A program made the position numbers and the translations under genes. 21,018 bases of DNA from Reyranella sp. (GTDB lineage Bacteria > Pseudomonadota > Alphaproteobacteria > Reyranellales > Reyranellaceae): positions 1-21,018 of the forward strand of contig JADHLS010000006.1 in the NCBI GenBank assembly GCA_016780605.1, written 5' to 3'. Below are positions 2,894-20,334 of the stretch, in pieces. The stretch's first letter is position 1. Every line of letters begins with the position of its first letter. The notes below the pieces were generated by a model, which ran no database searches, had not been told where the DNA came from, and saw nothing but the letters and a program-made list of their open reading frames with translations.

Positions 2894-5738
2894 AGTTCTG
2901 ACAACAATGGATGGATCCGCCAATTCCGAAAACCCTCTGCGCGACATCGATTGGCTTGCGATGGAGCGACGTCGGCAGACGTTTCTGGACTACTACCTCC
3001 TGGCCGTTGAAGCCTGCCTGCGCGGAGGCGCCAGGGAATGGTGGCAACATGCGTTCACCTATGACGGCTCTTCCGATCACTTGGCGAGTATGATGCTCCT
3101 GAAGGAGTTCTGCCTGCGGCAGGTGCTCTACGAAGCCGGTGACATATGGGCGCTCGGCCGAATCTATGAGGGGCTGGAACCGGAAGGCATCCTCGAAAAC
3201 GATGAACCAGGCCGTTTCCTGCTCGATCTGACGCGACATCTTCGCGGTCGGTTGGCACAGGTCGAGCCGGCACCGGCCGGCCTTCTTGCGCGCACGAAAC
3301 GGATGAAAGAGCGCTGGCAGCAGACTCGGGCTCGAACGCTGCCGGCCATGCTGAGCGTTGTCATCTTCGATGGACCGTCGGGCAACAATTTTTTCGACTA
3401 CTGCCTTGCCTCGCTGGCCAGCGAGGGAAATCTCCCGGCGCTCGCCAAGCAGCGCAGTGTGCGCCTACATATTTTTGGCCGCGAACGCGACCTCCCCGAA
3501 TTCGAGCGGAGGATCGCAGCAGCGTCGCTTGACTGCACGGTTGTCTGCGAACCAATCCCCGAAGATCTCGCCGTTCGCGCGGAAGGTGTGATCGGACCGC
3601 AGCGCGATTGGCTCCTCGGTGCCCTGGAGTGCCTTCATATCCTAGAAGCGAAGCGGCTGCGGGCCGATTTCCATGCGATCAATCCGAATGCGCTTTACGC
3701 CGACGGCTACTTCCAATCCATTTCCCGCTTGAACCGTGATGGTAAGATGGCGGTGCTGACCGCGACGGTCTATGCCGACCTGACTGCGATGCAAAATGAG
3801 TTGGCGCCATTTCGAGCTGCCGACGGGACGATCACCATCCCGCCCGTCGAGCTGGCGACCCTTGGCCTTCGTGCGCTCACGCCTGGCAATGGCCTCAAGG
3901 CCGTGCGGTTCACAGGGTTTCCGGGCAGCTGCGACCCCTGGCATTTGCAGCTAGCGTGGGAGCGTCGCGACAGCCTGCAGATTCGCAGCACGTACCACGA
4001 GATCTCGTTCCTGTCCCATCGCGTGCTGGAGTCACTGCCCCGCCGCTTCTTCATCAAACCGTCCGCCCAGATCGACAAGATGCTCGCCGGGGAAGTGCAA
4101 CCGCATTTCGTCGGCGAGGGGGACGGGATCATGATGCTCGAGCTCAGCAATCGAAGGACCATGCTCGACGGCGAGACGCTCGATCTTGACGACTTCGCCT
4201 CGGCGCTTGCGGCGTCCACCGGCAGGGGCGCGGCAGCTCACTTCAAGCAAGGAGTATCCTTGGCGATCGATCGGGCCGCGCTGGCGGACCGGCCGTGGCG
4301 CGGAGATACCGAATTCCTGGCCGAACAGGCTGCCGTCTTCAAGGCGCTCGACGAGGGCGTGGCATTCGCTGCCCCCAAGGGCGACCAGGTGCTGACCGCT
4401 CTCGGGGTTGTGCATCAATACGAGGTGTCGGAGTACGGACGTGACTGCCTCGGCGGCGTCATCGCAGAAGGCCGGCGGCTGCTGGCTGCTCTCGGAACTG
4501 ATGCCGACATGGACATGGCGATCCGAAGAGGCCTTATCCGGGGAGCGATGAACTTTGACGCGGTCGACACGGCGCTGGAACTTGCCGAACGCGGCGGCGA
4601 AAGCACTGTTTTCATCCGGGACTTCCTGTCGGCGATGGCTAAGCTCAAAGCCGACAATCGGATCCGCGCGAAGCGGCTACGTCCGGCTTTCAATTGGCGG
4701 CGCGTTGCCGTCGTCGGCGTGATTGCCTGGGGCGAACGGTTCGTCGAGAAGTTCATGAACTACTGCCTCGCCTCGTTGTTGGCCGATGGCAACATTCCCG
4801 CCCTAGCCCGCAAGGGGCGGGTGGTGCTCTCGGTCGTCACGACGGCAGCTGATCGTGATCGCATGACCGCACATCCTTCCTTCGCCCGACTTCGGCGGTC
4901 CGCAGAAGTCGTGTTCACGTGCTTTCCGCCGGAGTTCCTGGAGCGTCGTGAGAAGGATGGATTCAACTTCTATCACTTCTATGGCCTGCTCGACCATCAA
5001 AGCGTCTTCCTGGCTGAAGCGTTGCGGGCCGATCTCTACCTGCTGCCCATCGATTGCGTCTATTCCTCGAAGACCTTGAGCAATTTCCACTTCCGCCTCG
5101 AAAGGGATGCAGACTGTTGCTCGATCGGCGCCATCGAGGTCGAAGAGCCGGCGCTTCGGGCCTGGCTCGATGCCGATGGCCGGCGGCAGCCGGGTGGCGT
5201 CCTTGATCTGCCCGGTGAATCGCTCATCCAGGCGGCTGCCCTGCATCCGGATCGCTACTACCGCGCAATGATCATGAGTCCGGACACGACCGAATTCTGC
5301 GCTCACCCGCGCGAGCTGGTCTGGCCCTTCGCGAATGGCCTCGGAATGCACTCGATCTTCATGCATCCTCTCGCAGTATCGGCGCGCTTGCTCACGCGGC
5401 CGTTCCACCCGCACCACGAGAATGTTGACTATGCTCTGCTGCCGAGGCTGCTCCAAGGCGATGGACGGATGACGATCATCGAGAAGGGGAGCGAGGCGAC
5501 GCTGGCGCATTTCGGTGCGCCGGATACGCGGAGTGAATTCCTGCAAGGCGGCTTCTCGATCAGGAGCTTCGTCGAGGCGCATCGATACGACTACGCCGTC
5601 CACCGACGGTTCTTCGAGACACGACAGTTCTTTCCATGCCGTGAATTGCCCTATGCACCGTCGACGGCCTATGAGGCGGAACTGGGCCTGATCCAGTCGG
5701 CGCTCAAGCGAAATCGATTTTCGGCAGATCGAACATGA
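2874..5738 (+). CDS. Large protein with two tandem glycosyltransferase-like halves
   Basis: The product is 954 residues, with no named family that I can assign with certainty. It carries an internal duplication. Around residue 160 the first copy reads NNFFDYCLASLASEGNLPAL, and around residue 615 the second reads EKFMNYCLASLLADGNIPAL. Each is followed by a Rossmann-like alternation, then RLRADFHAINPNALYADGYF in the first copy and ALRADLYLLPIDCVYSSKTL in the second, then a C-terminal stretch with similar H/P-rich spacing. The pattern suits GT-A-like nucleotide-sugar binding domains, with the D/N-rich segment in the place of a DxD motif. The N-terminal 150 residues are helical and charged. No signal peptide or membrane helix is seen. 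ATG 2874 overlaps the Rieske gene by 20 bases; ATG 2907, in frame, is an alternative. Its stop overlaps the epimerase gene as ATGA. Probably a cytoplasmic glycosyltransferase; substrate unknown. Confidence 0.8.
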   Translation: MASVVHEVLTTMDGSANSENPLRDIDWLAMERRRQTFLDYYLLAVEACLRGGAREWWQHAFTYDGSSDHLASMMLLKEFCLRQVLYEAGDIWALGRIYEGLEPEGILENDEPGRFLLDLTRHLRGRLAQVEPAPAGLLARTKRMKERWQQTRARTLPAMLSVVIFDGPSGNNFFDYCLASLASEGNLPALAKQRSVRLHIFGRERDLPEFERRIAAASLDCTVVCEPIPEDLAVRAEGVIGPQRDWLLGALECLHILEAKRLRADFHAINPNALYADGYFQSISRLNRDGKMAVLTATVYADLTAMQNELAPFRAADGTITIPPVELATLGLRALTPGNGLKAVRFTGFPGSCDPWHLQLAWERRDSLQIRSTYHEISFLSHRVLESLPRRFFIKPSAQIDKMLAGEVQPHFVGEGDGIMMLELSNRRTMLDGETLDLDDFASALAASTGRGAAAHFKQGVSLAIDRAALADRPWRGDTEFLAEQAAVFKALDEGVAFAAPKGDQVLTALGVVHQYEVSEYGRDCLGGVIAEGRRLLAALGTDADMDMAIRRGLIRGAMNFDAVDTALELAERGGESTVFIRDFLSAMAKLKADNRIRAKRLRPAFNWRRVAVVGVIAWGERFVEKFMNYCLASLLADGNIPALARKGRVVLSVVTTAADRDRMTAHPSFARLRRSAEVVFTCFPPEFLERREKDGFNFYHFYGLLDHQSVFLAEALRADLYLLPIDCVYSSKTLSNFHFRLERDADCCSIGAIEVEEPALRAWLDADGRRQPGGVLDLPGESLIQAAALHPDRYYRAMIMSPDTTEFCAHPRELVWPFANGLGMHSIFMHPLAVSARLLTRPFHPHHENVDYALLPRLLQGDGRMTIIEKGSEATLAHFGAPDTRSEFLQGGFSIRSFVEAHRYDYAVHRRFFETRQFFPCRELPYAPSTAYEAELGLIQSALKRNRFSADRT

Positions 5739-6706
5739 CAGCGCGTTACATCGTCGTTGGCGGCGCGGGCTTCATTGGCAGCCACTTCGTCGACCGCCTG
5801 CTTGGCGACCGCTCGACAGCGGCCGTCACGGTCTTCGACAACTTCTCGTCCGGGCGGCGCTGGCATCTCGAAGGGCATGCCGGCGACAATCGCCTCTCGA
5901 TCGTCGAGGGTGACGTCAAGGATCTCGAGGCCCTGACCAGAGCAATGGGCGGCCACGATACGGCCATTCATCTTGCCTCCAACCCCGACATTGCCAAGGC
6001 CGCGACGCAGCCCGACGTCGACTTCTATGAGGGCACCTTTCTGACCCACCAAGTTGTCGAAGCGATGCGCCGGTCGGGCGTGAAGACGATCCTCTACGCC
6101 TCGGGCAGCGGCGTGTACGGAGATCTGGGGGAGGTCGAGGCCAATGAGCAGCACGCCGTCGGAGAACCGATCTCGACCTACGGTGCGAGCAAGCTGGCGG
6201 GCGAGGCGCTGATCAGCGCCTACTGCTTCATGTTCGGCCTGCGCGGCCGTGCCTTCCGGTTCGGCAATGTCGTTGGGCCGCACCAGACACACGGCGTCGG
6301 CTTCGATTTTGTCCGCCGGCTGCTGCAGGATCCTAGCCAGCTTTCAATCCTGGGGGATGGCCGCCAGAGCAAGAGCTACATCCATATCGACGACGTCATT
6401 GAAGCGGTCCTGACGGCCCACAAGCACGATGGAGCCGCCTACAATGTCTTCAACGTCGCGACCGGCGACTACATCACTGTCACGGAGATTGCCGAGCTCG
6501 CCGTAGAGTGCGTCGGTCTCAGGCCCGGCAGCGTCAAGTTCAGCTATACAGGGGGCGACCGCGGCTGGAAGGGAGACGTCCCGATCATCCGGCTCGCCAC
6601 CGAGCGCATCCGGGGAATCGGCTGGAAGTGCAAGCGCAGCTCGCGCGAGGCGTTGCGCGCCGCGATGCTGACCATGGTGGGCGAGTTTCGCGCCGGTCGG
6701 ATGTAG
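5735..6706 (+). CDS. NAD-dependent sugar epimerase/dehydratase (extended SDR)
   Basis: The product is 323 residues. The Rossmann NAD-binding motif GGAGFIGSH is at 9-17, the NAD-ribose-binding acidic residue region VFDNFSSG at 33-40, and the catalytic Y149-x3-K153 in STYGASKLAGEA, with the partner serine in ASGSGVYGD (122-130). Length and motif order fit the UDP-glucose 4-epimerase/GDP-sugar dehydratase branch of extended SDRs. The exact substrate cannot be read from the sequence; in this locus a nucleotide-activated hexose or heptose is plausible. ATG 5735 overlaps the upstream stop as ATGA, and the heptose phosphatase starts one base after its TAG. The cytoplasmic enzyme probably supplies or modifies a nucleotide sugar for the cluster's glycosyltransferases. 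Confidence 0.93.
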   Translation: MTARYIVVGGAGFIGSHFVDRLLGDRSTAAVTVFDNFSSGRRWHLEGHAGDNRLSIVEGDVKDLEALTRAMGGHDTAIHLASNPDIAKAATQPDVDFYEGTFLTHQVVEAMRRSGVKTILYASGSGVYGDLGEVEANEQHAVGEPISTYGASKLAGEALISAYCFMFGLRGRAFRFGNVVGPHQTHGVGFDFVRRLLQDPSQLSILGDGRQSKSYIHIDDVIEAVLTAHKHDGAAYNVFNVATGDYITVTEIAELAVECVGLRPGSVKFSYTGGDRGWKGDVPIIRLATERIRGIGWKCKRSSREALRAAMLTMVGEFRAGRM

Positions 6707-6707
6707 C

Positions 6708-7256
6708 ATGGCCGCCGCGGTGTTCCTCGATCGCGACGGCGTTCTCAATCGCACGTTCGTGGTCGATGGCGTGCCGCTTCCGCCGCGTACCATGGATGAG
6801 CTCGCCATCCTGCCTGGCGTTGAGGGGGCCTGCCGGTCCCTCCACGATCATGGCTTTCGACTGATCGTCGTCACCAATCAACCTGATATTGCGCGCGGCA
6901 AGCAGACAGTCGCGGCCGTCGACAGGCTGAACGGCGAATTGCGCCGCCGCTTGCCCCTGGATGACGTTTTGGTCTGCCCTCACGACGACAACGACGGTTG
7001 CGACTGCCGCAAGCCCCGGCCGGGCATGCTGCTCGCTGCCGCGCGGCTTCATGGTGTCGATCTTGCCAGGAGCATCATGGTCGGAGATCGCGACAAGGAC
7101 GTCGAGGCCGGCCGCGCCGCGGGCTGCCGGACGGTCTTCGTCGACGGCGGCTACGGCCGGCCGCCCCAGCCGCCGGCCGACCTTACCGTGCCGAGCTTGC
7201 GGGAAGCGGTGCCGTGGATTATCAGCCAAGGCAGGAGCGTGATCGGGGGACAATGA
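6708..7256 (+). CDS. gmhB: D-glycero-D-manno-heptose 1,7-bisphosphate 7-phosphatase (GmhB-like HAD-IIIA)
   Basis: The product is 182 residues, the normal length for GmhB. The HAD nucleophile and general acid are D8 and D10 in FLDRDGVLN, motif II is TNQ (56-58), motif III is RKPRPG (101-106) and motif IV is GDRDKDVEAG (126-135). Between them CPHDDNDGCDC (90-100) supplies the Cys90, His92, Cys98 and Cys100 zinc site that marks this family and separates it from histidinol-phosphate phosphatases by context. It removes the 7-phosphate from heptose 1,7-bisphosphate, the third step to an activated heptose. The partner kinase, isomerase and nucleotidyltransferase are on the opposite strand at 10295-13632. 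It starts one base after the epimerase stop and its TGA overlaps the transaldolase ATG as ATGA. Whether it prefers the alpha or the beta anomer cannot be seen. Confidence 0.92.
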   Translation: MAAAVFLDRDGVLNRTFVVDGVPLPPRTMDELAILPGVEGACRSLHDHGFRLIVVTNQPDIARGKQTVAAVDRLNGELRRRLPLDDVLVCPHDDNDGCDCRKPRPGMLLAAARLHGVDLARSIMVGDRDKDVEAGRAAGCRTVFVDGGYGRPPQPPADLTVPSLREAVPWIISQGRSVIGGQ

Positions 7257-7933
7257 AGCAGCTGCGCACCAAGATATTTGCCGATGGAGCGGATCTCGCC
7301 GCTCTGGAGAAGCTGTGTGCGAACCCCGCCATTCGCGGCTTCACCACCAACCCGACATTGATGCGCAAGGCCGGCGTCTCCGACTACGAAGCCTTCGCTC
7401 GCGCCGCGCTGAAACTGGTCGGCGATCGGCCGATCTCCTTCGAGGTGTTCTCCGACGAGCTGAGCGAGATGGAGAGCCAGGCGCGCACGCTGGCGAGCTG
7501 GGGCAGCAACGTCTACGTCAAGATCCCGGTCACAAACACCAAGCGCCAGCAGGCCGACGACCTCGTGCGCCGCCTGTCGCACTCGGGCGTGCGCGTCAAC
7601 GTCACGGCGGTGATGACGCTGGGCCAGGTCGAGCGGTTGTCCAAATGCCTGCATGGCGGCGCACCCAGCAACATCTCGATCTTTGCCGGTCGCATCGCCG
7701 ACACCGGCGTCGATCCTCTGCCGACCATGCGCAAGGCGCTCGAGCTGGTTGCAGGGTCGCCCGGCATTGAGATCATCTGGGCCAGCCCGCGCGAGCTCCT
7801 GAACCTCGTTCAGGCGAGCGACATCGGTTGCCACATCATCACCGTCACGTCGGACATCCTGGCCAAGCTGCCGCTGATTCGGGCGGGATCTCGACGACTA
7901 TTCACTCGATACCGTGAAGATGTTCTACAATGA
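7253..7933 (+). CDS. Transaldolase (FSA-like), C-terminus frameshifted
   Basis: The readable product is 226 residues from ATG 7253, which overlaps the GmhB stop as ATGA. Family marks are the conserved Asp in FADGADL (9-15), FTTNPTL (30-36) and VYVKIPVTN (87-95), with Lys90 as the Schiff-base lysine. Later NVTAVMTLGQ and ISIFAGRIADTG line the barrel. The protein follows the short transaldolase/fructose-6-P aldolase family until ILAKLPLI (residues ~202-209). Then it turns into an arginine-rich tail, RAGSRRLFTRYREDVLQ, unlike the family. One extra base near 7880 explains this, because the expected ending is found in the next frame (see 7881-7961). The enzyme exchanges C3 units between sugar phosphates and could make sedoheptulose 7-phosphate for the heptose pathway here. 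The in-frame extension upstream of 7253 inside gmhB is not coding. Confidence 0.88.
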   Translation: MKQLRTKIFADGADLAALEKLCANPAIRGFTTNPTLMRKAGVSDYEAFARAALKLVGDRPISFEVFSDELSEMESQARTLASWGSNVYVKIPVTNTKRQQADDLVRRLSHSGVRVNVTAVMTLGQVERLSKCLHGGAPSNISIFAGRIADTGVDPLPTMRKALELVAGSPGIEIIWASPRELLNLVQASDIGCHIITVTSDILAKLPLIRAGSRRLFTRYREDVLQ

Positions 7934-9271: not shown

Positions 9272-9357
9272 GGTCGGGTCCTCAAACTTGCCGGCTCCAC
9301 AACAAGCGCATGCCCGTTGTTGTTGTAGATTACAAGCCTGTCGTGCTGCCCGATCAT
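9268..9357 (-). CDS. Tiny coupled ORF, 29 residues, unknown
   Basis: ATG 9357-9355 overlaps the flippase-like gene's TGA (9356-9354) as ATGA, and this ORF's TGA (9270-9268) overlaps the next GTG start as GTGA. The peptide begins MIGQHDRLVIYNNNGHALVV and ends in LRTRP. Both junctions match the coupling seen elsewhere in the operon and the ORF fills the whole gap between two genes, which argues for translation. It has no motif or membrane helix. A (CAA/AAC)-rich hairpin lies inside it, with arms ACAACAA and TTGTTGT on the plus strand near 9300-9327. It may serve only to carry ribosomes across the gap, or be the remnant of a larger gene. Confidence 0.35.
   Translation of the reverse strand: MIGQHDRLVIYNNNGHALVVEPASLRTRP
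9279..9283 (-). promoter_or_regulatory. Ribosome binding site for the 184-residue methyltransferase
   Basis: GAGGA on the minus strand lies 7 bases before GTG 9271. It supports the GTG start and independent initiation in addition to coupling from the tiny ORF. Confidence 0.55.
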
Positions 9358-10298
9358 GACGACACTGGCGGCCGTGCCGGCTGGCCGAGCCAGAGCGCCA
9401 GGCCGGGCAGGGAGGCGACTAGCAGAGCCAGGCCGAAGAGCACCGACACGATCAGGCCCTGTTCGGGCGCTACACCATAGAAGCCCAACAGAACAACGAA
9501 GGCGCCCTCCCGCACTCCCCAGCCTCCCAACGAGACGGGGATCAGGGCCACCAGCAACCCGGGCGCCACTGTGACCGCGCAATCGAGGAAGGAAAGCGGC
9601 GCGCCGATGCTGCGGCCGGCCACGAAGAAGCCGACAATCGCGACCAACTGCCCCAGAAGGCCCGTCCCCAGCAGTAAGGGCACCTGCGACGAGCGGCCGA
9701 CGGCGGATAGAGCAAGGCCCAGCGAGGCTATCGGCCGCAGAAACTTGACACTGTCAAGTCGTCGGGCGGCGAGTGCGATGATCGCGAGGCCCATCACTGC
9801 AAAAAGGCACCCGGCCAGCATGAGCCACAGGAGCCAGCGCACAGGCGCATCACCAATGCGTTGCATCAGCAGCGGAAAGGTCAGCCCGAAGCACAGCAGG
9901 ACGGCCAGCAGGCCGACCAGCCGCTCGATCAGGACACTGTTGATGGCCACGCCGAAAGGCACGCCGGCTTTGGTACAGAACCAGATGCGCCATGCGTCGC
10001 CGCCGATCGAGGACGGCAGGACCTGGTTGAAGAACGCGCCGATATAGAGGCCGCGCGCGATGACCCCGGTCGGCAGGGCATGCCCCAGGCAGGCCAGGAT
10101 CGCCCGCCAGCGCGGAACGCTGACAGCCGGCACGGCAAGAAGCACGAGCACAGCAAGGCCGGCCAGCCACGGATTGGTGGTTTTCAGGATGGCCGCCAGC
10201 TTGGTGAGATCCAGACTGCGGACCAGGAGAGCCAACAGCAGCACCGACAGCGCCACCTTGAGCAGCATCGGCCCCCACCGGCGCACGGCGCTGGTCAC
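9354..10298 (-). CDS. Flippase-like integral membrane protein (LPG_synthase_TM / UPF0104 family)
   Basis: The product is 314 residues from GTG 10298, which overlaps the nucleotidyltransferase stop as GTGA; ATG 10268 is an alternative. Upstream in-frame sequence is a shadow of that gene. About eight hydrophobic helices cover the length, beginning with MLLKVALSVLLLALLV (11-26). The family signature FFNQVLPSSIGGDAWR (89-104) and the late VSLGGWGVREGAFVVLL are both present. The family includes the membrane part of lysylphosphatidylglycerol synthase and AglD-like proteins of glycan loci, and is thought to move or handle lipid-linked substrates. No aminoacyl-transfer domain is fused, so lysyl transfer is unlikely. 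Placed beside a GtrB-like glycosyltransferase, a role in moving polyprenyl-phosphate-sugar across the inner membrane is plausible but inferred. Confidence 0.88.
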   Translation of the reverse strand: MTSAVRRWGPMLLKVALSVLLLALLVRSLDLTKLAAILKTTNPWLAGLAVLVLLAVPAVSVPRWRAILACLGHALPTGVIARGLYIGAFFNQVLPSSIGGDAWRIWFCTKAGVPFGVAINSVLIERLVGLLAVLLCFGLTFPLLMQRIGDAPVRWLLWLMLAGCLFAVMGLAIIALAARRLDSVKFLRPIASLGLALSAVGRSSQVPLLLGTGLLGQLVAIVGFFVAGRSIGAPLSFLDCAVTVAPGLLVALIPVSLGGWGVREGAFVVLLGFYGVAPEQGLIVSVLFGLALLVASLPGLALWLGQPARPPVSS

Positions 10299-11011
10299 AG
10301 CCCGGCCTGATCGACGTAGCGGCCGAAATCTTCGATGCCCGATAGCGATCCGACCTCGTAGAACCGTTGGCTCACCTCGAAGCCCGCCAGTTCTCCCTCG
10401 CCGCTCAGGCGATGGAGAACATCGGCGAGATCGACGACAGCACCCGCCGAGATTCTCTCCGCCACGAGCCGGCGACAGAGCACCAAGAGGCCGTAGTCGA
10501 TATGGGTCATGGTGGCCCGGGTCGCCTCGTCGCAATTCTTGTCGTAGAGGGCCACCAGTGGCGGCGCATAGACGACGTTGCTGCGATCCCAGCGGTTCTC
10601 GTTTCGCAGCACGGTCATCAGCGCGGGCTTTCGTGAGCGGCCATGCTGGGCGAGGACGGGCCGGTAGTCGATGGGCAAGAAGGAATCGCCATAGAGCACG
10701 AAGAACGCGTCGTCGAGTCGCGTCGTCTCAAGCGCCAGCCGCAGCGCGCCGGCCGTGCCCCTGAGGTCCTTGCCCTCGTCGACATAGGTGACCCGAAGGC
10801 CCCAGGCAGAGCCGTTGCCGACGTAGTCGACGATCTGCCGGCCCTTATGGCCGATGCAGTAGACCACTTCATCGATGCCCTGGCGCGCCAGCCAGGCGAG
10901 CTGATAGCTGGCGAACGGCTTGCCGCGGATCGGCACCAGCGCCTTGGGAATTTCGTGCGTGATGGGATAGAGCCTCGTTCCAAGGCCGCCGGCCAGGATC
11001 ACACTCTGCAT
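10295..11011 (-). CDS. hddC: Nucleotidyltransferase, probably heptose-1-phosphate guanylyltransferase (HddC-like)
   Basis: The product is 238 residues from ATG 11011. The nucleotide-binding loop is ILAGGLGTRLYPIT (5-18), followed by PKALVPIRGKPF (22-33), the signature of the sugar-1-phosphate nucleotidyltransferase family. LYGDSFLPIDY supplies the metal-binding Asp of the GxD motif. DEGKDLRGTAGALRLAL matches the sugar-phosphate side. Length is close to single-domain HddC/RmlA-like enzymes, without the hexapeptide repeats of GlmU. The assignment to heptose 1-phosphate rests on the neighbouring HddA kinase and GmhA-like isomerase rather than on a specific residue; a glucose or mannose phosphate cannot be excluded. 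It makes the nucleotide-activated sugar in the cytoplasm. Its TGA overlaps the flippase-like gene as GTGA. Confidence 0.85.
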   Translation of the reverse strand: MQSVILAGGLGTRLYPITHEIPKALVPIRGKPFASYQLAWLARQGIDEVVYCIGHKGRQIVDYVGNGSAWGLRVTYVDEGKDLRGTAGALRLALETTRLDDAFFVLYGDSFLPIDYRPVLAQHGRSRKPALMTVLRNENRWDRSNVVYAPPLVALYDKNCDEATRATMTHIDYGLLVLCRRLVAERISAGAVVDLADVLHRLSGEGELAGFEVSQRFYEVGSLSGIEDFGRYVDQAGL

Positions 11012-11027: not shown

Positions 11028-12008
11028 CTAGTCCCGCATCATGGTGGTCGAACCGTCGTGATCGAAGCGGAAGGGCACTTCCATCAGTCCTTCCTTGGTC
11101 ATGGCGGCCCGCAGGCGTGTGCGATCCGTCGCGTAGAACAGCAGGAAGCCGCCGCCGCCGGCTCCGACCATCTTGCCGCCGACGGCGCCGGCATCGCGGC
11201 CGACCTCGTACCAGCGGTTGATATCGCCGTTCGACATGTTGGACGAGCGTTTGCGCTTCATCTCCCAGTGTTGATGCATCAGCTCGCCGAAGCGGTGGGT
11301 GTCGCCTTGCTCGAGCGCCTGCTTGATGTCGATGCCGAGCGATTTCACGTAGTGCAGGTTCTCGATCATCGCCGCATCGCCGTCGGATGTCCGCTTGTCC
11401 TGGTCGATCAGGATGTCGGTGGCGGCGCGCGAGTAGCCGGTGAAGAACAGCAGGAGATTCTCCTCCAGATCGGTGAGCGTCTGGTTGGAGATCGAGAGTG
11501 GCCGGACCTTCACGCTGTCGTCGGGCAGGAACTCGAAATGGGTCATGCCGCCGTAGGAGGCGATGTACTGGTCCTGCTTGCCGATCGGATGGCGCAGCAC
11601 GTCGATCTCGATGTGGCACGCCTCCTGCGCAACCTGTTCGGCGGTGACGTGCATGCGCTTGGAGGCATAAAGCGCGCGCAGCAGCCCGACCGAGAAGGTG
11701 CCCGAGGAGCCGAGCCCGGTTCCTGCCGGGATGTCGGCAAGGCTGATGATCTCTACCGCCGGCGGCACCGCGTGGCGGCGCAGCGATTCCCGCACGATCG
11801 GGTGCTGCACTTCATCGATCGTGTCGACATGCTCGAACTTCGAGTACTTGACCTGGTAGCCGGGACTGAAAGTGTGGTTGATGCCGACGTAGATGTACTT
11901 GTTGATCGCGGCCGAGATCAGCTCGCCGCCGAATTTGCGATAGTAGGATGGCAGGTCGGTACCGCCGCCAGCGATCGAGATGCGCAGCGGCGTGCGCGTG
12001 ATGATCAC
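11028..12008 (-). CDS. hddA: D-glycero-alpha-D-manno-heptose 7-phosphate kinase (HddA-like, GHMP family)
   Basis: The product is 326 residues from GTG 12008, which overlaps the glycosyltransferase stop as GTGA. The N-terminus IITRTPLRISIAGGGTDLP (2-20) is the hallmark of the HddA group of GHMP kinases. The ATP loop PAGTGLGSSGTF (94-105) is intact, and the third GHMP motif is VGAGGGGFLLFY near the C-terminus. HPIGKQDQYIASYGG carries the sugar-site residues expected for this group. The enzyme phosphorylates the 1-position of heptose 7-phosphate and defines the GDP-D-alpha-heptose route, as opposed to HldE of the ADP-heptose route. The next gene, the nucleotidyltransferase, begins 16 bases after the stop, so the order kinase-transferase follows the biochemical order. 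Confidence 0.93.
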   Translation of the reverse strand: MIITRTPLRISIAGGGTDLPSYYRKFGGELISAAINKYIYVGINHTFSPGYQVKYSKFEHVDTIDEVQHPIVRESLRRHAVPPAVEIISLADIPAGTGLGSSGTFSVGLLRALYASKRMHVTAEQVAQEACHIEIDVLRHPIGKQDQYIASYGGMTHFEFLPDDSVKVRPLSISNQTLTDLEENLLLFFTGYSRAATDILIDQDKRTSDGDAAMIENLHYVKSLGIDIKQALEQGDTHRFGELMHQHWEMKRKRSSNMSNGDINRWYEVGRDAGAVGGKMVGAGGGGFLLFYATDRTRLRAAMTKEGLMEVPFRFDHDGSTTMMRD

Positions 12009-13054
12009 GAGGGGCGTCCCGCCTGGATGCCGTTCTCGGCGGAGCCCGCGCCCGGCCGCCGCTCGGGTGGGTTAAAGAATCGGTCCACGATGTAGGCTGG
12101 CCGCCCTTTGACCTCGTCATAGACGCGGCCGATATACTCCCCGAGGATGCCGATCGCCACTAGCTGTACGCCGCCGAGCAGCGCGATCAGCAGGGTGATG
12201 GTGGGAAAGCCGAGCGGATAGTGCTCGCCGAACACCAGCGCCTGTACGGCGACGTAGACGCCGACCAGCAGGGCGGTGGCGGCAATGGCGATGCCCGCGA
12301 ACAGCGTGCCGGTCAGCAGCGCCGTGGAAAAGCCAATGATGCCGTTCAGCCCAATGCGGATCGAGCCGAGGTATCTCGGATAGTTGCTGTCGCCGGCGGC
12401 GCGCTCCTGTCGATCGAATTCGACGAACGTCTGGTTGAAGCCGACGAAGGCCACCAGGCCGCGCAAGAAGCCGTGGCCCTCCTTGAGCCGGCACAGCTCG
12501 TCGATCACCCGCCGATTCATGATCCGGAACTCGCCCGTGTCCTTGGGGATCTCGACGTCGGAGAGGGCATTGATGACCCGATAGCCGACGAACGACATCA
12601 GGCGCCGGATCAGCGGCTCGGTCTTGTTGCGCTTGCGACGCTTGGCCATGACGACATCGAAGCCTTCGCCGAGCTTGCGATAGAGGTCGGCGATGAGCTC
12701 GGGCGGATCCTGCAGGTCTACGTCGACCACAACGCAGCTCTTGCCGATGCAGTGGTGCAGTCCCGCCATGACGGCTGCTGGCTGTCCGAAGCGGCGGCTG
12801 AAGCAGAGCAGGCGAATCCGCGAATTGCGCAGGATCTCCTCGAGGATGACCTCCTTCGTGCGATCCGGGGAAGGGTCATAGCAGAACAGGATCTCGTAGC
12901 TGCCGATGGCTTCGAGCACCGGCTCGACGCGCTCGAGGAACAGCCGGATGTTCTTCTCTTCCCGGAAAACCGGAACGATGACGGAAATGTCCGGTTGGTC
13001 GGCGCGCCGCAACAAGGGTCGCGAGACGATGCGCTGTTCGAGCTGCTCTACCAT
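12005..13054 (-). CDS. GtrB/DPM-like family 2 glycosyltransferase, membrane-anchored
   Basis: The product is 349 residues from ATG 13054. The GT2 start is ISVIVPVFREEKNI (23-36), the acceptor-loop region FSRRFGQPAAVMAG (85-98) and the metal site VVDVDLQDPPEL (109-120) with D111 and D113. QERAAGDSNYPRYLG (216-230) is the R-x-A-G-x-S-x-Y element of the dolichyl-phosphate-mannose synthase-like group. Two helices follow, about 246-272 and 283-305, the second running into GILGEYIGRVYDEVKGRP, which marks the GtrB/ArnC/bactoprenol glucosyltransferase type. Such enzymes load a nucleotide-activated sugar onto polyprenyl phosphate on the cytoplasmic face. It overlaps the isomerase gene by 7 bases. The donor may be the GDP-heptose made by its neighbours; this is inference. 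Confidence 0.92.
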   Translation of the reverse strand: MVEQLEQRIVSRPLLRRADQPDISVIVPVFREEKNIRLFLERVEPVLEAIGSYEILFCYDPSPDRTKEVILEEILRNSRIRLLCFSRRFGQPAAVMAGLHHCIGKSCVVVDVDLQDPPELIADLYRKLGEGFDVVMAKRRKRNKTEPLIRRLMSFVGYRVINALSDVEIPKDTGEFRIMNRRVIDELCRLKEGHGFLRGLVAFVGFNQTFVEFDRQERAAGDSNYPRYLGSIRIGLNGIIGFSTALLTGTLFAGIAIAATALLVGVYVAVQALVFGEHYPLGFPTITLLIALLGGVQLVAIGILGEYIGRVYDEVKGRPAYIVDRFFNPPERRPGAGSAENGIQAGRPS

Positions 13055-13632
13055 TTGGTTCGGTTGACCATCAGTTTCGGATGCGACACCAGACAGTGCC
13101 AGACCACCGCCTGGAAAGCTTCGCTGTGCGGTGTCACCAAACCGGGATCGACCACCGGAATCTTGACGACGGCATGGGCGACTTTTGCGGTGTAGCCGCC
13201 GTCGCGTCCGACGATGCCGAAGATGGCAAGCCCGCGCTTGCCCGCTTCATCGAGGGCCTCGATCAGGTTCGGGCTGACATTGCGCTCGCGGTCGCCGCCG
13301 CCGACGGACAGGACGAGCAGCGCGTCCTTGTCGTTGGCGCGGCTGGTCTTGAGCCATGCGGCGAAGACGCCCGCCCAGCCCTCGTCGTTGGTGCGAGCCG
13401 TCAACTCCGAGACGTTGTCGGTTGGGGCGTAGGCCTCGACATCGCAAAGCTTGCGAAAATCGTTGACCGCATGGGAGGCGTTGGCGGCGCTGCCGCCAAC
13501 CCCCAGCACGAACAGCCGTCCCTCGCGGGCCCGTACGGTTGCGAGGCCGTCAGCGAGGCGCTCGATGGCGGCAAGGTCCAGCTTGGCGGCGATCTCCGCG
13601 ACCTGGCCGAAATATTTCTTTGTGAAGCCCAT
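13048..13632 (-). CDS. gmhA: SIS-domain phosphoheptose isomerase (GmhA-like)
   Basis: The product is 194 residues, matching GmhA length (about 190-200). The phosphate-sugar loop is LGVGGSAANASHAVND (43-58) and the C-terminal catalytic element is TPHSEAFQAVVWHCLV (167-182). In GmhA, zinc and catalysis use His and Glu near the first loop and Gln and His near the second. Here H54/D58 and E171/H179 fall at the same spacing, with Glu changed to Asp and Gln to Glu. It would isomerise sedoheptulose 7-phosphate to D-glycero-D-manno-heptose 7-phosphate, the first committed step. It is the first gene of the minus operon, with a purine-rich GGTAGAGG just before ATG 13632. A different keto-sugar phosphate isomerase is the main alternative because of the changed residues. 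Confidence 0.85.
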   Translation of the reverse strand: MGFTKKYFGQVAEIAAKLDLAAIERLADGLATVRAREGRLFVLGVGGSAANASHAVNDFRKLCDVEAYAPTDNVSELTARTNDEGWAGVFAAWLKTSRANDKDALLVLSVGGGDRERNVSPNLIEALDEAGKRGLAIFGIVGRDGGYTAKVAHAVVKIPVVDPGLVTPHSEAFQAVVWHCLVSHPKLMVNRTKW

Positions 13633-13966: not shown

Positions 13967-13967
13967 A
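13830..13967 (+). CDS. Possible leader ORF, 45 residues
   Basis: ATG 13830 opens a short ORF whose TGA (13965-13967) shares one base with ATG 13967 of the first polytopic paralogue, so it could be translationally coupled. The peptide begins MTRTAGGGWHDVPEAALPVW and has one mildly hydrophobic segment. The ribosome site is weak and no homologue is recognised. It could equally be an accidental frame inside a leader. Confidence 0.2.
   Translation: MTRTAGGGWHDVPEAALPVWLGVTIGMAHEILSSDDSVCRGGGVR
13855..13867. promoter_or_regulatory. Perfect dyad, possible operator
   Basis: GGCACG-A-CGTGCC, 6-base arms with a one-base centre, about 100 bases before the first paralogue and about 220 bases before the isomerase start. 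It has the size of a half-turn operator, but short GC-rich palindromes occur by chance in such DNA. Confidence 0.2.
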
Positions 13968-15628
13968 TGGTCGCCTCGCTGGAAGAGGGGCTGAAGGAAA
14001 AGTCGCTCGGCCGTGGGGTCGTGATGGCGGCGCTTTCGCCGTTGGTGACGGCGATCCTGGCGGCGCTCATCATCTTTGCCCTCTTCACGACCGGCATGCG
14101 GCGCGGCATGGACGGCGCGATCGCTATTGGGGAATCCGAGCAGACGGCTTGGGCAGTGGCCATTTCCGAGATGGTGTATGGCCTGGATAGCTACGTAGCG
14201 CACACTGCGGTCGTCGACGCGATCATTAGGGGTGTGCGCAATGGCACCGGCGGGCCCGCCGATCCGAAATTCCGCGAGAACCTCAACAACCCCGACCTGC
14301 TGAACGCGGCGCTCTCGGCGGCACTTGCGCTCGGTCCACAGCCTGAGGGATTCGTCGCGCAGCGGACCCTGACGACGATGCTGTACGACGACATTGGTAT
14401 CGTCGATTACGACAAGATCGCCTTCAGTCTCTTCGGCTTTCGCGTCCAGTCTCTCTACTACCTGTTCTTCGTCATCGTCTCGCTAAGCACAGCGGCCTTC
14501 CTGCTGCAGTTCTGGGGAAAGCCTGTCGCGCAGGTTCTTCTGCTTTCCAATCTGGCGGCATTCTGGCTGGAGCTTAATGCAGATATCTTTATGCCCGACA
14601 TGCCGTCCTTCTGGGGTATGCGCCACGGCTCGACCTTGGCCATCCTGCCGATGTGGCATCTGGCCCTGCTCCTGGTGTGGCGTACGCGCCTTTCCCTGTC
14701 GGCGGTGGTTCTGGCCTCTGTTCAGGTAGCCATTCTCGTCTTTGCGACGCGAATTCGCGGGTCGGCGGCCTGGACGGTCATCTTCCTCGCCTGCCTCTCG
14801 GCCTTCCTTGCTTATCGGTTCTGGCGCTCGCTCGAAGCAGATCAAACGTCGCTTTTCAAGGTGGCGCGGGCGGCCCTGAGATGGCCCTTCGTCCTGTTGC
14901 TGATCGGTTTGGCCACGAGCAAGATCTATACGAGCGGCAAGCTTCATCCGTCATATTTCACCGACGACATCATGCCCTATCACGGGGCGTGGCATTCCGC
15001 TTACCTCGGCATGATCATATCGCCCACGTTCTGGGCGACGACGGGCAAGGATAGCGGCGCGTGGGGCGACGCCATCGCTTACGAGGTCGCGCTCAGGTAC
15101 TTGCGAGAGAAGGGCTTCATCGCCAAGGAGGGGGACTACATTTCTCCCTGGACCCAGACCTACAAGATGCGCCTGCACGACCGGACGATGCGCGCGATCT
15201 ATCTCGATTTGGTTCGGGAGTACCCATTCACCACGCTAGGCCTCTACCTTTATCATAAGCCGCTCTGGGTTCAGGCGTTCATCGCGCCCAAACTGCGGCT
15301 CACTTCCGAAGAGGCTTGGCTGGTCATATTCCTTGGCGCCGTCGTTATGGCCATCGTGACCGCGGTCGCGCGAAGACCGACGGCGGCCGAAATGCGCAGT
15401 GCCTTTTGGCTGGGTTTGGCGGCCGCCGTTTTTTCGAGCCTGCCCAACATATGGGCCTACACAGGCAATCAGACGGCCACCGACGTCTTGCTCTCTACCA
15501 TGATTTTCGTCGTCCTGCTGACCTGGATGGTTTGCTCACAGGTCCTGATCTTGCTGCGCGACCGCAAGTCCGCGAGGGGTCCCAACACCCTCTATGGTCC
15601 GTTCGCTTCCAGGCGAGGCGCTCAGTGA
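13967..15628 (+). CDS. Polytopic membrane protein, paralogue 1 of a three-gene tandem array
   Basis: The product is 553 residues, family not recognised. ATG 13967 is chosen over TTG 13964 just before it because paralogues 2 and 3 then begin at the same distance from the first helix. Helix 1 is at about 19-42. A hydrophilic loop of about 115 residues follows, with SEQTAWAVAISEMVYGLDSY (57-76) and YDDIGIVDYDKIAF (140-153). Helices come at about 160-182, 186-205, 221-238, 244-262, 266-285 and 305-320. A second soluble segment carries DDIMPYHGAWHSAYLG (333-348) and SPWTQTYKMRLHDR (393-406), and three helices end the protein. The acidic DDxGIVDY in the first large loop recalls the position of catalytic acids in GT-C glycosyltransferases; that reading is inference. 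Its stop overlaps paralogue 2 as GTGA. Confidence 0.85.
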   Translation: MVASLEEGLKEKSLGRGVVMAALSPLVTAILAALIIFALFTTGMRRGMDGAIAIGESEQTAWAVAISEMVYGLDSYVAHTAVVDAIIRGVRNGTGGPADPKFRENLNNPDLLNAALSAALALGPQPEGFVAQRTLTTMLYDDIGIVDYDKIAFSLFGFRVQSLYYLFFVIVSLSTAAFLLQFWGKPVAQVLLLSNLAAFWLELNADIFMPDMPSFWGMRHGSTLAILPMWHLALLLVWRTRLSLSAVVLASVQVAILVFATRIRGSAAWTVIFLACLSAFLAYRFWRSLEADQTSLFKVARAALRWPFVLLLIGLATSKIYTSGKLHPSYFTDDIMPYHGAWHSAYLGMIISPTFWATTGKDSGAWGDAIAYEVALRYLREKGFIAKEGDYISPWTQTYKMRLHDRTMRAIYLDLVREYPFTTLGLYLYHKPLWVQAFIAPKLRLTSEEAWLVIFLGAVVMAIVTAVARRPTAAEMRSAFWLGLAAAVFSSLPNIWAYTGNQTATDVLLSTMIFVVLLTWMVCSQVLILLRDRKSARGPNTLYGPFASRRGAQ

Positions 15629-17226
15629 CCGCCATCACAACCCCACTCGATCAGAGGTCGCTGGCACGAAAGTTTGTCGCCGGCAGCTTGTTGCCGATCG
15701 TGACGGCGCTCCTCGCGGTGCTCATCATTCTTGCGGTCTTCGCGATGGGCGTGCGACGCGGCATGGACGGCGTCATCGCGGTGGGCAAATCCGAGCAGAC
15801 GGCCTGGGCCGTCGCCATTTCCGAGATGGTGTACGGGCTCGACGGCTACGTGGCGCACGCCGCCGTCATCGACACGATCATCCAGCGCATCCGCGGCGGT
15901 ACGTCCGGCCCGGGCGATCCCAACTTCGAAAAGAACATCGCCAACCCCGACCTGTTGAACGCGGCGATCTCGGCCGCGCTCTCGCTCGGCCCTCAGCCTG
16001 AAGGGTTTGTCTCAGAGCGAAGCCTGCGGACGATGGTCGATGACGACATCGGCATCGTCGACTACGACAAGATCGCGTTCGCCCTGTTCGGCTTCCGGGT
16101 GCAGTCGCTCTACTACCTCTTCTTCGTGATCCTCTCGCTCAGTACGTCGGTGTTCCTTCTGCAGTACTGGCGAAGGCCGATGGCTCAGGTTCTGCTCCTG
16201 TGCAACCTGGTTGCGTTCTGGCTCGAGCTCCATACGGCAATGTTCACGCCTCACATGCCGTCATTGTGGGGAATGCGTCATGGGTCGACTCTGGCCATCC
16301 TGCCCACGTGGCATGTTGCCCTGCTGATGGCCTATCGCACGCGCCTGTCCTGGTCAGCCGCGATGCTTGGGCTGATCCAGATTGCGATCATCGTCTTCGC
16401 GATCAGGATTTGCGGTTCCGCCGGCTGGACCGTGATCTTCCTGGCCGCCCTCGCGGCGTTCTTCGCCTTTCAGCTTTGGCGCAACACGCAGCCCGGTGAG
16501 CGATCTCTGGGCACGATTGCCAAGGCAGCGCTGAAATGGCCCTTCGTGCTGCTGCTGATCGGCTTGGCCGCCAACAAGCTGTATACCGATGCGAAGCTCC
16601 ATCCCGCGTACTTCACCGACGACATCATGCCCTATCACGGGGCGTGGCATTCGGCCTATCTCGGCATCATCGTGTCCCCGACGCTCGTTGCCGCGACCGG
16701 AGATCCCAAACGCCCTTGGGGCGATGCCGTTGGTTATGCGGCGGCGCTCCAATACCTGCGCAAGAAGAGCTTCATCGCTACGGAGGGGGAATACTTCTCA
16801 CCTTGGACGCATACTTACAAGATGCGCCTTCATGATCGGACCATGAAGTCGCTCTATCTGGACCTAGTCAGCGAGTATCCCTTCACCACCGTCGCCCTGT
16901 ACGTCTACTGGAAGCCGCTCCATCTCCGTCACGTCGTCGAGTATCTGCTGGCCGGGGTGCCGCCCGAGACGTGGGTGATCGCGGTCGTCGCGTTTCTGCT
17001 GCTTGGGGTGACGGCCGCCCTGATGAACAGGCTCAACCGGACGGACGTTCTCGTCACCATGGCTCTTGCGCTAGCGGCGGTGTTGTTTGCGTCGATTCCG
17101 TCCATATGGGCTTATGCGTCGGTCGACACGGTGGCCGACGCCGTGCTCAGCTTTCTTGTGCTGGCGTTTGTTGTCGCCTGGGCGGTCGGCGTGTGGCTGG
17201 TGAACATGCTGCGCAGCCGTTCGTGA
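15625..17226 (+). CDS. Polytopic membrane protein, paralogue 2 of the tandem array
   Basis: The product is 533 residues from GTG 15625, which overlaps the stop of paralogue 1 as GTGA; the in-frame extension upstream lies inside that gene and is not coding. By eye it is closer to paralogue 1 than to paralogue 3. It repeats the same blocks: first helix, SEQTAWAVAISEMVYGLDGY, DDDIGIVDYDKIAFALFG, QSLYYLFFVILSLST, MPSLWGMRHGSTLAILP, DDIMPYHGAWHSAYLG and SPWTHTYKMRLHDRTM, then three C-terminal helices ending VNMLRSRS. A run of 41 identical bases is shared with paralogue 1 (14957-14997 and 16612-16652). Function unknown; probably inner membrane, acting with the glycan genes around it. An 82-base gap precedes paralogue 3. 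Confidence 0.85.
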   Translation: MTAITTPLDQRSLARKFVAGSLLPIVTALLAVLIILAVFAMGVRRGMDGVIAVGKSEQTAWAVAISEMVYGLDGYVAHAAVIDTIIQRIRGGTSGPGDPNFEKNIANPDLLNAAISAALSLGPQPEGFVSERSLRTMVDDDIGIVDYDKIAFALFGFRVQSLYYLFFVILSLSTSVFLLQYWRRPMAQVLLLCNLVAFWLELHTAMFTPHMPSLWGMRHGSTLAILPTWHVALLMAYRTRLSWSAAMLGLIQIAIIVFAIRICGSAGWTVIFLAALAAFFAFQLWRNTQPGERSLGTIAKAALKWPFVLLLIGLAANKLYTDAKLHPAYFTDDIMPYHGAWHSAYLGIIVSPTLVAATGDPKRPWGDAVGYAAALQYLRKKSFIATEGEYFSPWTHTYKMRLHDRTMKSLYLDLVSEYPFTTVALYVYWKPLHLRHVVEYLLAGVPPETWVIAVVAFLLLGVTAALMNRLNRTDVLVTMALALAAVLFASIPSIWAYASVDTVADAVLSFLVLAFVVAWAVGVWLVNMLRSRS

Positions 17227-17295
17227 CGACGAAGGCAGTGTCGAGCAATCGAGGCTAGCAGCGCCTGCACTTTGGGGCCGAGAGTTCATGTTGCC

Positions 17296-17302
17296 GGAAG
17301 GA
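17296..17302 (+). promoter_or_regulatory. Ribosome binding site of paralogue 3
   Basis: GGAAGGA with a 6-base spacer to ATG 17309. This favours ATG 17309 over ATG 17288, and the resulting N-terminus matches paralogues 1 and 2 in length. Confidence 0.6.
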
Positions 17303-17308
17303 CAAGAG

Positions 17309-18874
17309 ATGGCCGGGGCCCGTGTTTCAGGTGACCGCAGCGGCGGAACGCTGCGGGCCGGCGCCAGCGCCAAGCTGTTCTTCGCGCTCACTGCCATCCT
17401 TGCCGCGATCGTCATCGTCTCGGTCTTCACGTCGGGTATCCAGCGCGGCATGGACCACGTCATGAGCTACGGGCCGGAGTCCGAGCAGAATGCCATGGCG
17501 ATAGCGATCTCGGAACTCTATCACGGATTGAACAGCTACGTCGGCTACACCTCGGTCCGCGAGATTTTGCAGAATGCCATGGGCCCCGAGGGACCGCGAG
17601 ATCCCAGGCTTCTGGCCAATGTCAGGGACGGCAACCTCATCAACAAGGCGATTGCCGCCGCCATCGCCGCGCCGCCGCGGGTGCCGGCCCATGTTGCGGA
17701 CGGCTCCTTGATGACGATGGTCTACGACGACGTCGGCATCGTCGACTACATCAAGATCGCATTCACCGTCTTCGGCCCGACCATTCAGTCGTTGTACTAT
17801 CTCTTCTTTGCAATCCTTTCTCTCAGCACTGCAGCCTTCTTCATTCAATTTCGGGCCCAGGCGGTGGCGCAGGTGGTGTTGCTCGCCGTCCTCAGTGCCT
17901 TTGCCCTGGAACTGCAGACCAACTTCTTCAGCAACGACGTGCCGACTTTCTGGGGAATGCGGCACTGTTCCACCCTGGCACTGGTGCCTCTGTGGCACCT
18001 GGCATTCCTCATGTTGTACCGAGTTCGACTCTCATGGTGGTCGGTCGGGTTCGCGGCTCTCCAGGTCGCGATCGTCCTGCTCGCCATCAAGACGAGAGGG
18101 TCGACGCTGTGGGTTGTGCTGTTCCTCGTCGGGCTTGCCGCCTTCATTGCGCTTCGCGCTTGGTGGCGACTGCCGGCGTCCGATCGATCGATCAGACGCC
18201 TGTTGCGCATGGCGGCGGTATGGCCGCTGATTCTGATGCTGGCCGGCGCGGGCGCCGACAAGGTCTATACCGACGCGAGACTCCATCCGGTCTATTTCAC
18301 CGACGACGTCATGCCGTATCATGGTGCCTGGCACTCCGCCTTTCTGGGTTTTTCGGCCGTTCCGTCCTTTCCGGGCGTGGACATTGCGGGCGTCCAAAGT
18401 TGGGACAGGTTTGGTTACGAGGCCGCGCTATCGTACCTGAAGGCCAAGGGCTTCATCACGACGGAGAAGGAGTATGTCTCCCCGTGGACGAAGACCTACA
18501 AGATGCGCCTGCACGACCGCGTCATGCGATCCGTCTACCTCGAATTGATGAGGGAGAATCCGCTCTCCGCGCTGACGCTTTATGCCTACTGGAAGCCCCG
18601 CCAGCTTCTCATAGCCCTTGGAGTAATCCTCGACGGCGTGTCGCTGATGGCATGGCTGGCAGTTGTGATCGGCCCATTGGCGCTTGCCGTCCTGACAATA
18701 CGCACTTTCCGCATCGACACGATGGAGGTTTGGTCAGTGCTCCTCATGATGCTGTCGGCGATTGCGTTCGCCGCGCTGCCCACCTTGTGGGCGTACGCGG
18801 CGCTGCAGCGGTGGCGGATATCGTGTTGGGCTACTTCGCCTTCCTGCTCGTCGCGATCTGGGCGGTTGGCGTGA
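17309..18874 (+). CDS. Polytopic membrane protein, paralogue 3, C-terminus frameshifted
   Basis: The readable product is 521 residues from ATG 17309 (528 from ATG 17288). It keeps the family blocks SEQNAMAIAISELYHGLNSY, YDDVGIVDYIKIAF, QSLYYLFFAILSLSTAAFF, VPTFWGMRHCSTLALVPLWH, DDVMPYHGAWHSAFLG and SPWTKTYKMRLHDRVM, but is more divergent than the other two, for example Asp to Ile in GIVDYIK. After LPTLWAYAALQ the frame gives RWRISCWATSPSCSSRSGRL, which is unlike a membrane helix, while the paralogues continue with a last helix. The missing helix is found in another frame at 18811-18915, so one base is lost near 18809. The protein as written lacks its last membrane segment. It follows paralogue 2 by 82 bases and is probably in the same transcript. 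Confidence 0.8.
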   Translation: MAGARVSGDRSGGTLRAGASAKLFFALTAILAAIVIVSVFTSGIQRGMDHVMSYGPESEQNAMAIAISELYHGLNSYVGYTSVREILQNAMGPEGPRDPRLLANVRDGNLINKAIAAAIAAPPRVPAHVADGSLMTMVYDDVGIVDYIKIAFTVFGPTIQSLYYLFFAILSLSTAAFFIQFRAQAVAQVVLLAVLSAFALELQTNFFSNDVPTFWGMRHCSTLALVPLWHLAFLMLYRVRLSWWSVGFAALQVAIVLLAIKTRGSTLWVVLFLVGLAAFIALRAWWRLPASDRSIRRLLRMAAVWPLILMLAGAGADKVYTDARLHPVYFTDDVMPYHGAWHSAFLGFSAVPSFPGVDIAGVQSWDRFGYEAALSYLKAKGFITTEKEYVSPWTKTYKMRLHDRVMRSVYLELMRENPLSALTLYAYWKPRQLLIALGVILDGVSLMAWLAVVIGPLALAVLTIRTFRIDTMEVWSVLLMMLSAIAFAALPTLWAYAALQRWRISCWATSPSCSSRSGRLA

Positions 18875-18915
18875 CGTTGTTCGGCCGGCTGGGATTCGGA
18901 CTCCGATCTGACTGA
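18811..18915 (+). pseudogene. Displaced 3' end of paralogue 3
   Basis: In the frame starting at 18811 the sequence reads VADIVLGYFAFLLVAIWAVG, then VTLFGRLGFGLRSD and TGA 18913-18915. It aligns with VADAVLSFLVLAFVVAWAVG of paralogue 2 at the same position. Compared with paralogue 2, eleven rather than twelve bases separate the conserved WAYA from this VAD, so a single-base deletion explains the break. It encodes the final membrane helix. Confidence 0.8.
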
Positions 18916-19417: not shown

Positions 19418-19445
19418 TTGAAATTGCGGAAATCGGCAATTCCAA
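19418..19445. promoter_or_regulatory. Imperfect 10-base inverted repeat before the transketolase
   Basis: TTGAAATTGC and GCAATTCCAA, separated by 8 bases, match at nine of ten positions. The repeat ends 14 bases before ATG 19460, where a repressor site or an RNA hairpin covering the ribosome site could act. No T-run follows, so it is not a typical terminator. Confidence 0.3.
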
Positions 19446-19459
19446 GTACACCCCCCTAC

Positions 19460-20320: not shown

Positions 20321-20327
20321 GGGGAGG
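20321..20327 (+). promoter_or_regulatory. Ribosome binding site of the transketolase C-terminal subunit
   Basis: GGGGAGG immediately after the TGA of the N-terminal subunit, with a 7-base spacer to ATG 20335. This is the strongest ribosome site in the window and fixes the start. Confidence 0.7.
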
Positions 20328-20334
20328 CTGGGCA

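Follow-up and report, generated by a model that had tools for sequence, protein, structure and literature searches.

In the part of PMC11127046 that we draw on, three-component periplasmic glycosylation is represented by the GtrA/GtrB/Gtr* systems and by the GT136 pentofuranose system. For GT-CA enzymes, the excerpted text of PMC12041299 gives a common core of seven transmembrane helices (TM1-7), in which TM1 and TM2 flank juxtamembrane (JM) helices and the first of these bears an essential Asp at its tip, while the portion of PMC7801869 used here aligns the first-loop acid across TMTC proteins, ArnT (D55) and Pmt (D77). Here, we analyse a 21,018-nucleotide stretch (hereafter the window) of the Reyranella sp. 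assembly GCA_016780605.1 (contig JADHLS010000006.1, positions 1 to 21,018), in which open reading frame calling placed three consecutive plus-strand paralogous membrane-protein genes (A, B and C) near a family 2 glycosyltransferase (GT2) gene. With a probability of roughly three in four, we consider A, B and C to be GT-C-fold glycosyltransferases that would act last in a three-component periplasmic glycosylation system, probably linking sugars, which may have seven carbons, to a surface glycan at the outer side of the inner membrane. The computed evidence comprises fold similarity, conserved residues clustered on the predicted periplasmic side and co-location with GT2 genes. Other genomes and loci are denoted below by G and L numbers, and database proteins by P numbers.

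Gene arrangement and sequence family

The three genes look like one operon, since a GTGA joins the stop of A with the start of B and only 61 bp separate B from C. Their products are far more similar than expected by chance (A-B 60% identity, A-C 46-49%), and the description given in an earlier note on this DNA was confirmed: the paralogues are consecutive, they share five blocks (DD[IV]GIVDY, QSLYYLFF, [FL]WGMRH[GC]STLA, DD[IV]MPYHGAWHSA and SPWT[QHK]TYKMRLHDR), and they follow one layout (one helix, a loop of about 115 residues, six helices, a soluble segment and three helices), with which the AlphaFold2 model of A agrees (second loop of about 120 residues). The proposed size of some 520-550 residues also fits the lengths given in Table 1, but the end assumed for C (18915) is out of frame. 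The reading frame of C is broken near 18.8 kb, with an in-frame stop at 18874 and the homologous C-terminus in another frame up to 18915; an uninterrupted close relative encoded on other contigs (P0039, 535 amino acids) is 96% identical over 521 columns. This may be either an assembly error or a real break.

The profile searches agreed with the note that no named family fits. Pfam gave no family match for A, B and C (only DUF3318 on B, E 5.5), for the 45 members of our profile A1 (three families at E 0.08-0.09, one member each) or for five distant members (best DUF3493, E 0.0012, below cut-off, on a G161 member). NCBIfam had no match for the three proteins (only a CrcB model on B, E 2.6), nor had PHROGs for the three-gene family. 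Among the sequences of solved structures one search found two matches, both at E above 1, and the profile search none. A protein database search recovered 48 proteins (P0001 being A itself), none with precomputed Pfam domains; the named ones are called ‘hypothetical protein’, and one is labelled Reyranella sp. Of the 47 proteins listed in a further search with profile A3, P0072 alone was new, and a distant subfamily of 23 proteins was reached via a G161 gene; the A-type and distant groups are homologous (hhalign probability 100, E 8.9e-57). The best reading, by comparison with Pfam, NCBIfam and PHROGs, is that A, B and C belong to an undescribed sequence family.

Predicted fold and topology

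The AlphaFold2 model of A (45 sequences; predicted local distance difference test, pLDDT, 88.2; predicted template-modelling score 0.88) has TM1 at 14-45, a 115-residue loop (46-160) and six membrane helices within 161-325, followed by a second loop at about 326-447 and three helices over 448-536. The first loop carries helices 55-71, 80-91, 100-106, 109-120 and 144-156, and a second AlphaFold2 model, from the distant subfamily (pLDDT 88), is similar there. Helices 401-418 and 420-444 of the second loop are taken as not spanning the membrane in the model. Given this choice, the positive-inside rule would place both long loops in the periplasm, since the net charge is positive in the C-terminus and in four short loops (182-185, 238-243, 289-305 and 469-472), which should be cytoplasmic; the N-terminus (2 Lys/Arg, 3 Asp/Glu) is uninformative as to orientation.

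When both models were compared with solved structures in Foldseek, as the note had proposed, rows 1-35 were all GT-C-type chains (Pmt, STT3/AglB, ArnT, AftA, Emb, DPY19 and PIG-U), and the first unrelated rows were short partial matches; a fold search of BFVD had no match at E<=0.001. The TM1-7 fold shared by GT-CA enzymes is thus seen in two independent models, computationally and with weak Foldseek E-values, and the helices present between TM1 and TM2 may correspond to JM1 and JM2. By predicted fold only, the proteins would belong to the GT-C superfamily and, within it, to no named sequence family.

Conserved residues and the candidate active site

The 73 sequences in which conservation was assessed comprise the 3 of the window, 8 from further genomes and 62 database proteins; five fragments were set aside, as were P0001, P0009, P0039 and P0049, which coincide with A, B, C and the G161 gene or stand next to them. 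Seven positions are invariant (A119, D142, G144, F153, F156, F168 and W269; A numbering is used throughout), and D147 (71/73), R219 (70/73), H231 (71/73), R264 (71/73) and D368 (72/73) are nearly so, followed by H327, H339 and H343 (69/73 each). Apart from H231, which lies inside a membrane helix, the charged and histidine positions listed here are on the predicted periplasmic side. The conserved acids and histidines that the note placed in the soluble parts lie mainly in predicted periplasmic segments.

The motif D142-x-G144-x-x-D147, at the N-terminal tip of helix 144-156 and just before TM2, holds the candidate active-site acids. D142 marks the tip of a helix that comes last in the first loop; either D142 or D49, which is nearer TM1 and is Asp in 44 of the 73 sequences, may occupy the GT-C site. 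In view of the fold matches of both models, a GT-C-type enzyme is far more probable than a transporter, as the note had supposed, and a simple transporter was dropped from consideration as being at odds with both the fold and the conserved residues.

Glycan loci and linkage to GT2 genes

Eight loci in seven genomes could be placed: the window, one each in G012, G014, G054, G131 (where two GT-C genes count as one locus) and G347 (where the gene is cut by the contig end), and a pair in G161. All eight hold glycan genes, and neither of the outcomes that the note would have taken as contrary (a strong match to a transporter, or homologues mostly outside glycan loci) occurred in the searches made or in these eight loci. 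In seven of the eight, a homologue of the window GT2 (27-100% identity, E<=1e-15) stands no more than 10 kb away, as a three-component system would have it, with only 1 to 5 such genes per genome. In the exception, G014, a shorter GT2 follows directly downstream, and an LPG_synthase_TM gene is close by. Candidate flippases were noted in three loci, namely LPG_synthase_TM proteins in the window and G014 and an EamA-type protein in G161.

The resemblance extends to another family of the class: in G161, genes for GT2, HddA, HddC and two methyltransferases keep the order of the window (72%, 75%, 58%, and 79% and 55% identity, respectively), and the EamA-type protein (SMR-like by eye) takes the place of LPG_synthase_TM. 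The two adjoining paralogues there are only 30-35% identical to A-C, and the window GmhA, GmhB and transaldolase had no relative in the G161 stretch examined.

Several results weigh against the glycosyltransferase assignment. The Foldseek E-values are weak for both models; PMT_2 (PF13231) had no match at E<=0.1 among the 45 A1 members; and hhalign of A3 against 32 PMT_2-locus proteins, a set with at least two out-of-frame open reading frames and a comparison run without a positive control, gave probabilities of 1.1 (local) and 1.4 (global). Under uniform placement the GT2 link has P of about 1e-13 (1e-11 without G054, a near copy of G012), a figure that offers support rather than proof and a link that is weakened, because the 10 kb limit was set with the distances already in view and the null takes no account of the clustering of glycan genes.

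Additional observations concern the same loci. The window, G012, G014 and G054 each carry, no more than 5 kb from the GT-C genes, a split transketolase pair with 90-95% protein identity (window 19418-21018; L013 15536-17130; L014 2530-4085; L015 15636-17188), and the GT-C proteins of these loci are only about 30% identical; the pair may be a marker for a single variable glycan locus in the genus. In G131 two very diverged members (L016 4543-6219 and 17141-18829) are separated by about 11 kb, a stretch that includes two GT2 genes. A distant-subfamily member has its own GtrB-like GT2 at a distance of about 1 kb (L022 6150-7790 and 8831-9838), and the genes nearby look, by eye, aminotransferase-, epimerase- and nucleotidyltransferase-like.

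Distribution

The family is patchily distributed (all counts include the genome of origin). Profile A1 found it in 5 of 146 relatives and in 3 of 385 genomes of the class (5 of 385 with A3, counting G347 and also G078, whose match at E 2.7e-4 in an ABC-transporter-like frame is probably false), and 4 of 76 matched in another set of relatives, again with G078. The same genus accounts for 4 of 65 genomes, the order of G161 for 1 of 4 and the family of G131 for 2 of 7, and the phylum sample for 1 of 398, i.e. no genome besides the own one. Searching genome contigs with A alone gave 12 pattern stretches and no relative (the profile search gave one locus), and no relative was found in viral contigs (pattern search) or plasmids (queries A and P0051).

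Proposed mechanism and the role of three copies

In the following scheme we infer catalysis, the chemistry of the donor, the flippase, the acceptor and why there are three copies. The adjacent GT2 would load a sugar onto polyprenyl phosphate at the cytoplasmic side, and the flippase-like protein would carry the lipid-linked sugar across the membrane. Each GT-C paralogue would then transfer the sugar from the lipid phosphate to a periplasmic glycan (or lipid) acceptor, by means of the first-loop acids and the conserved Arg, His and Asp of the surrounding loops. The three copies would probably differ in the acceptor positions that they serve, or at least one of them would act as a partner subunit.

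The tree (75 rows) and the loss of R264 in B both agree with specialisation without telling different substrates from a hetero-oligomer. A, B and C form three supported lineages (A and B neighbouring, C further off), and each of them includes separate relatives from other assemblies, which indicates that the array is old or was assembled from diverged copies. The note had seen a tandem triplication with divergence: three diverged tandem copies are indeed present, but the tree does not favour a local triplication, and a recent one was dropped because A, B and C fall in separate lineages. This separation, together with the single GtrB-type GT2 found in the assembly against three GT-C copies, speaks for different substrates, in which the copies would share one polyprenyl-phosphate sugar and each use another acceptor or linkage, like serotype-specific Gtr enzymes. 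We give this an even chance; against it, the assembly is 60.7% complete, so that other donor synthases may be missing.

More tentatively, the array may form a hetero-oligomer of one catalytic copy and a divergent partner, as in Pmt1-Pmt2 or EmbA-EmbB. B has Cys for R264 and Lys for R409, both of which A and C keep, and Cys at 264 occurs elsewhere only in P0008 (Arg in the other 71 of 73). P0008, of the B clade, is altered at R264C, H339P and P493T and is apparently paired with the A-clade P0004 (both on 5,745 bp contigs); G161a is altered at four conserved positions (R219K, H339R, H343T and D368E) and its neighbour G161b keeps the usual residues. Against a partner subunit, B retains D142, D147, D368 and the histidines, both G131 copies deviate alike (R219H, H327S and H339Y), G012, G014 and G054 carry one copy each, and P0020 and P0025 (contigs of equal size, near-consecutive locus tags) are both canonical at the positions checked. 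The apparent pairing of P0004 with P0008 and of P0020 with P0025 suggests arrays elsewhere. From the few loci available, the substitution pattern fits either a divergent partner subunit or relaxed specialisation.

Window neighbourhood and the heptose question

The genes around the array are listed in Table 1. Among solved chains, the GT2 is closest to sll0501 (1.7e-63), which we take to be a GtrB, and to ArnC (7.1e-37). Its matches to the NCBIfam PgfS and ArnC models are below cut-off, and no other such gene reaches E<=1e-15 in its own assembly. The LPG_synthase_TM protein exceeds the TIGR00374 cut-off (52.8 against 43.2 bits).

Table 1. Features of the window, with positions, strand and the basis of each assignment
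Feature	Position	Strand	Basis or remark
Paralogue A	13967..15628	+	553 amino acids, polytopic, predicted GT-C fold
D142-x-G144-x-x-D147 motif of A	14390..14407	+	N-terminal tip of helix 144-156 before TM2; candidate active-site acids
Paralogue B	15625..17226	+	533 amino acids; GTG start 15625 (analyses used 15628, one codon later)
Paralogue C	17288..18874	+	ATG start; 528 amino acids in frame
GT2, GtrB/ArnC type, hydrophobic C-terminal part	12005..13054	-	PF00535; proposed polyprenyl-phosphate sugar synthase
HddA-like heptose-phosphate kinase, GHMP family	11028..12008	-	NF049969, 6.8e-53, 180 bits against cut-off 600
HddC-like nucleotidyltransferase, specificity uncertain	10295..11011	-	PF00483
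LPG_synthase_TM / TIGR00374 ‘flippase-like’ protein, candidate donor flippase	9354..10301	-	PF03706, 2.6e-44; start codon inferred
SIS-domain phosphoheptose-isomerase-like (GmhA-like)	13048..13632	-	PF13580; below NCBIfam cut-offs
GmhB-like HAD phosphatase	6708..7256	+	TIGR01656 over cut-off; PRK08942, 3.2e-36, below cut-off
Transaldolase, TIGR02134 type	7244..7933	+	294 bits over cut-off 282
SDR nucleotide-sugar epimerase/dehydratase, specificity unassigned	5735..6706	+	PF01370; NCBIfam models below cut-off
Split transketolase pair	N part 19418-20320; C part from 20335, open at window end 21018	+	PF00456, PF02779, PF02780

A heptose donor is plausible but unproven. The solved chains closest to the HddA-like protein are heptose-phosphate kinases or putative sugar kinases, and those closest to the GmhA-like protein are phosphoheptose isomerases (4.9e-12). 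The HddC-like protein has a mixed set (two named for the 6-deoxy-D-mannoheptose pathway), and its match to NF049965 (5.9e-22) ranks behind MurU-like and other models, all below cut-off. These genes could make A, B and C heptosyltransferases: the GmhA-, HddA-, GmhB- and HddC-like enzymes would yield a nucleotide heptose, GT2 would convert it to polyprenyl-phosphate heptose, and the paralogues would place heptoses on a periplasmic glycan, with B (R264C) as partner. This more specific scheme is doubtful, and we kept the heptose donor apart from the glycosyltransferase assignment because the GmhA-, HddA- and HddC-like scores are below the NCBIfam cut-offs, because relatives of the window GmhA, GmhB and transaldolase did not appear in G161, and because the sugar genes elsewhere look different (in G012 and G054 CDP-sugar-like, as judged by eye without a family search). 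If the heptose scheme is true, lipid-phosphate-linked heptose would be a donor on which exact-phrase searches of open-licence literature for polyprenyl-phosphate heptose found no paper. Among the papers listed by a search for Reyranella glycans none names the genus, which settles nothing.

Three further genes of the window are recorded here. Positions 2874-5738 encode a 954-residue protein without Pfam or NCBIfam match, and partial relatives (47% and 55%) occur where the G014 and G054 stretches end; 1898-2893 encodes a Rieske [2Fe-2S] domain protein within the glycan locus; and 2-1165 encodes a membrane protein, cut by the window start, with a soluble C-terminal part and no Pfam match, which we would guess to be another membrane glycosyltransferase.

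Alternatives to transferase activity

It is improbable that the proteins have a GT-C-like fold and lack transferase activity, as a PIG-U-like accessory protein or a lipid-linked sugar transporter would: PIG-U is among the GT-C chains matched, but the higher-scoring fold matches are enzymes, the conservation of D142, D147, R264 and D368 is enzyme-like, and the locus already has a flippase-like protein. An enzyme of the GT-CB type (O-antigen ligase or polysaccharide polymerase) using a diphospholipid-linked oligosaccharide, which a polytopic protein with a large periplasmic loop in a glycan locus might bring to mind, is highly improbable, since WaaL appears only at Foldseek rank 42 (probability 0.06, second model) and the long post-TM1 loop and the leading matches are GT-CA-like.

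Comparison with known systems

Under the glycosyltransferase assignment, proteins so far hypothetical or unnamed gain a testable function and the GT-C superfamily would gain a new sequence family, and three paralogues beside one donor synthase offer a natural test of the division of labour among GT-C paralogues. Among GT-CA enzymes, ArnT (undecaprenyl-phosphate aminoarabinose transferase) and the PMT protein O-mannosyltransferases have no detectable sequence similarity to A-C, which differ in having their most conserved acids at the end of the first loop and in being tandem copies. From the AftA/AftB/Emb arabinosyltransferases they differ by the lack of a Pfam Arabinose_trans match and, in the model of A, of an extra C-terminal domain.

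The closest parallels are the GtrA/GtrB/Gtr* and GT136 systems, as far as the part of PMC11127046 used here describes them, and by analogy we infer that the present arrangement would work like these. As there, a polyprenyl-phosphate-sugar-synthase-like GT2 lies near a GT-C-fold protein, and a flippase-like neighbour is present (in the window, G161 and G014). Unlike those systems, the operon described here has three GT-C copies whose GT-C proteins fall in no known family, the flippase candidates are of the LPG_synthase_TM or EamA/SMR type, and the donor may possibly be a heptose.

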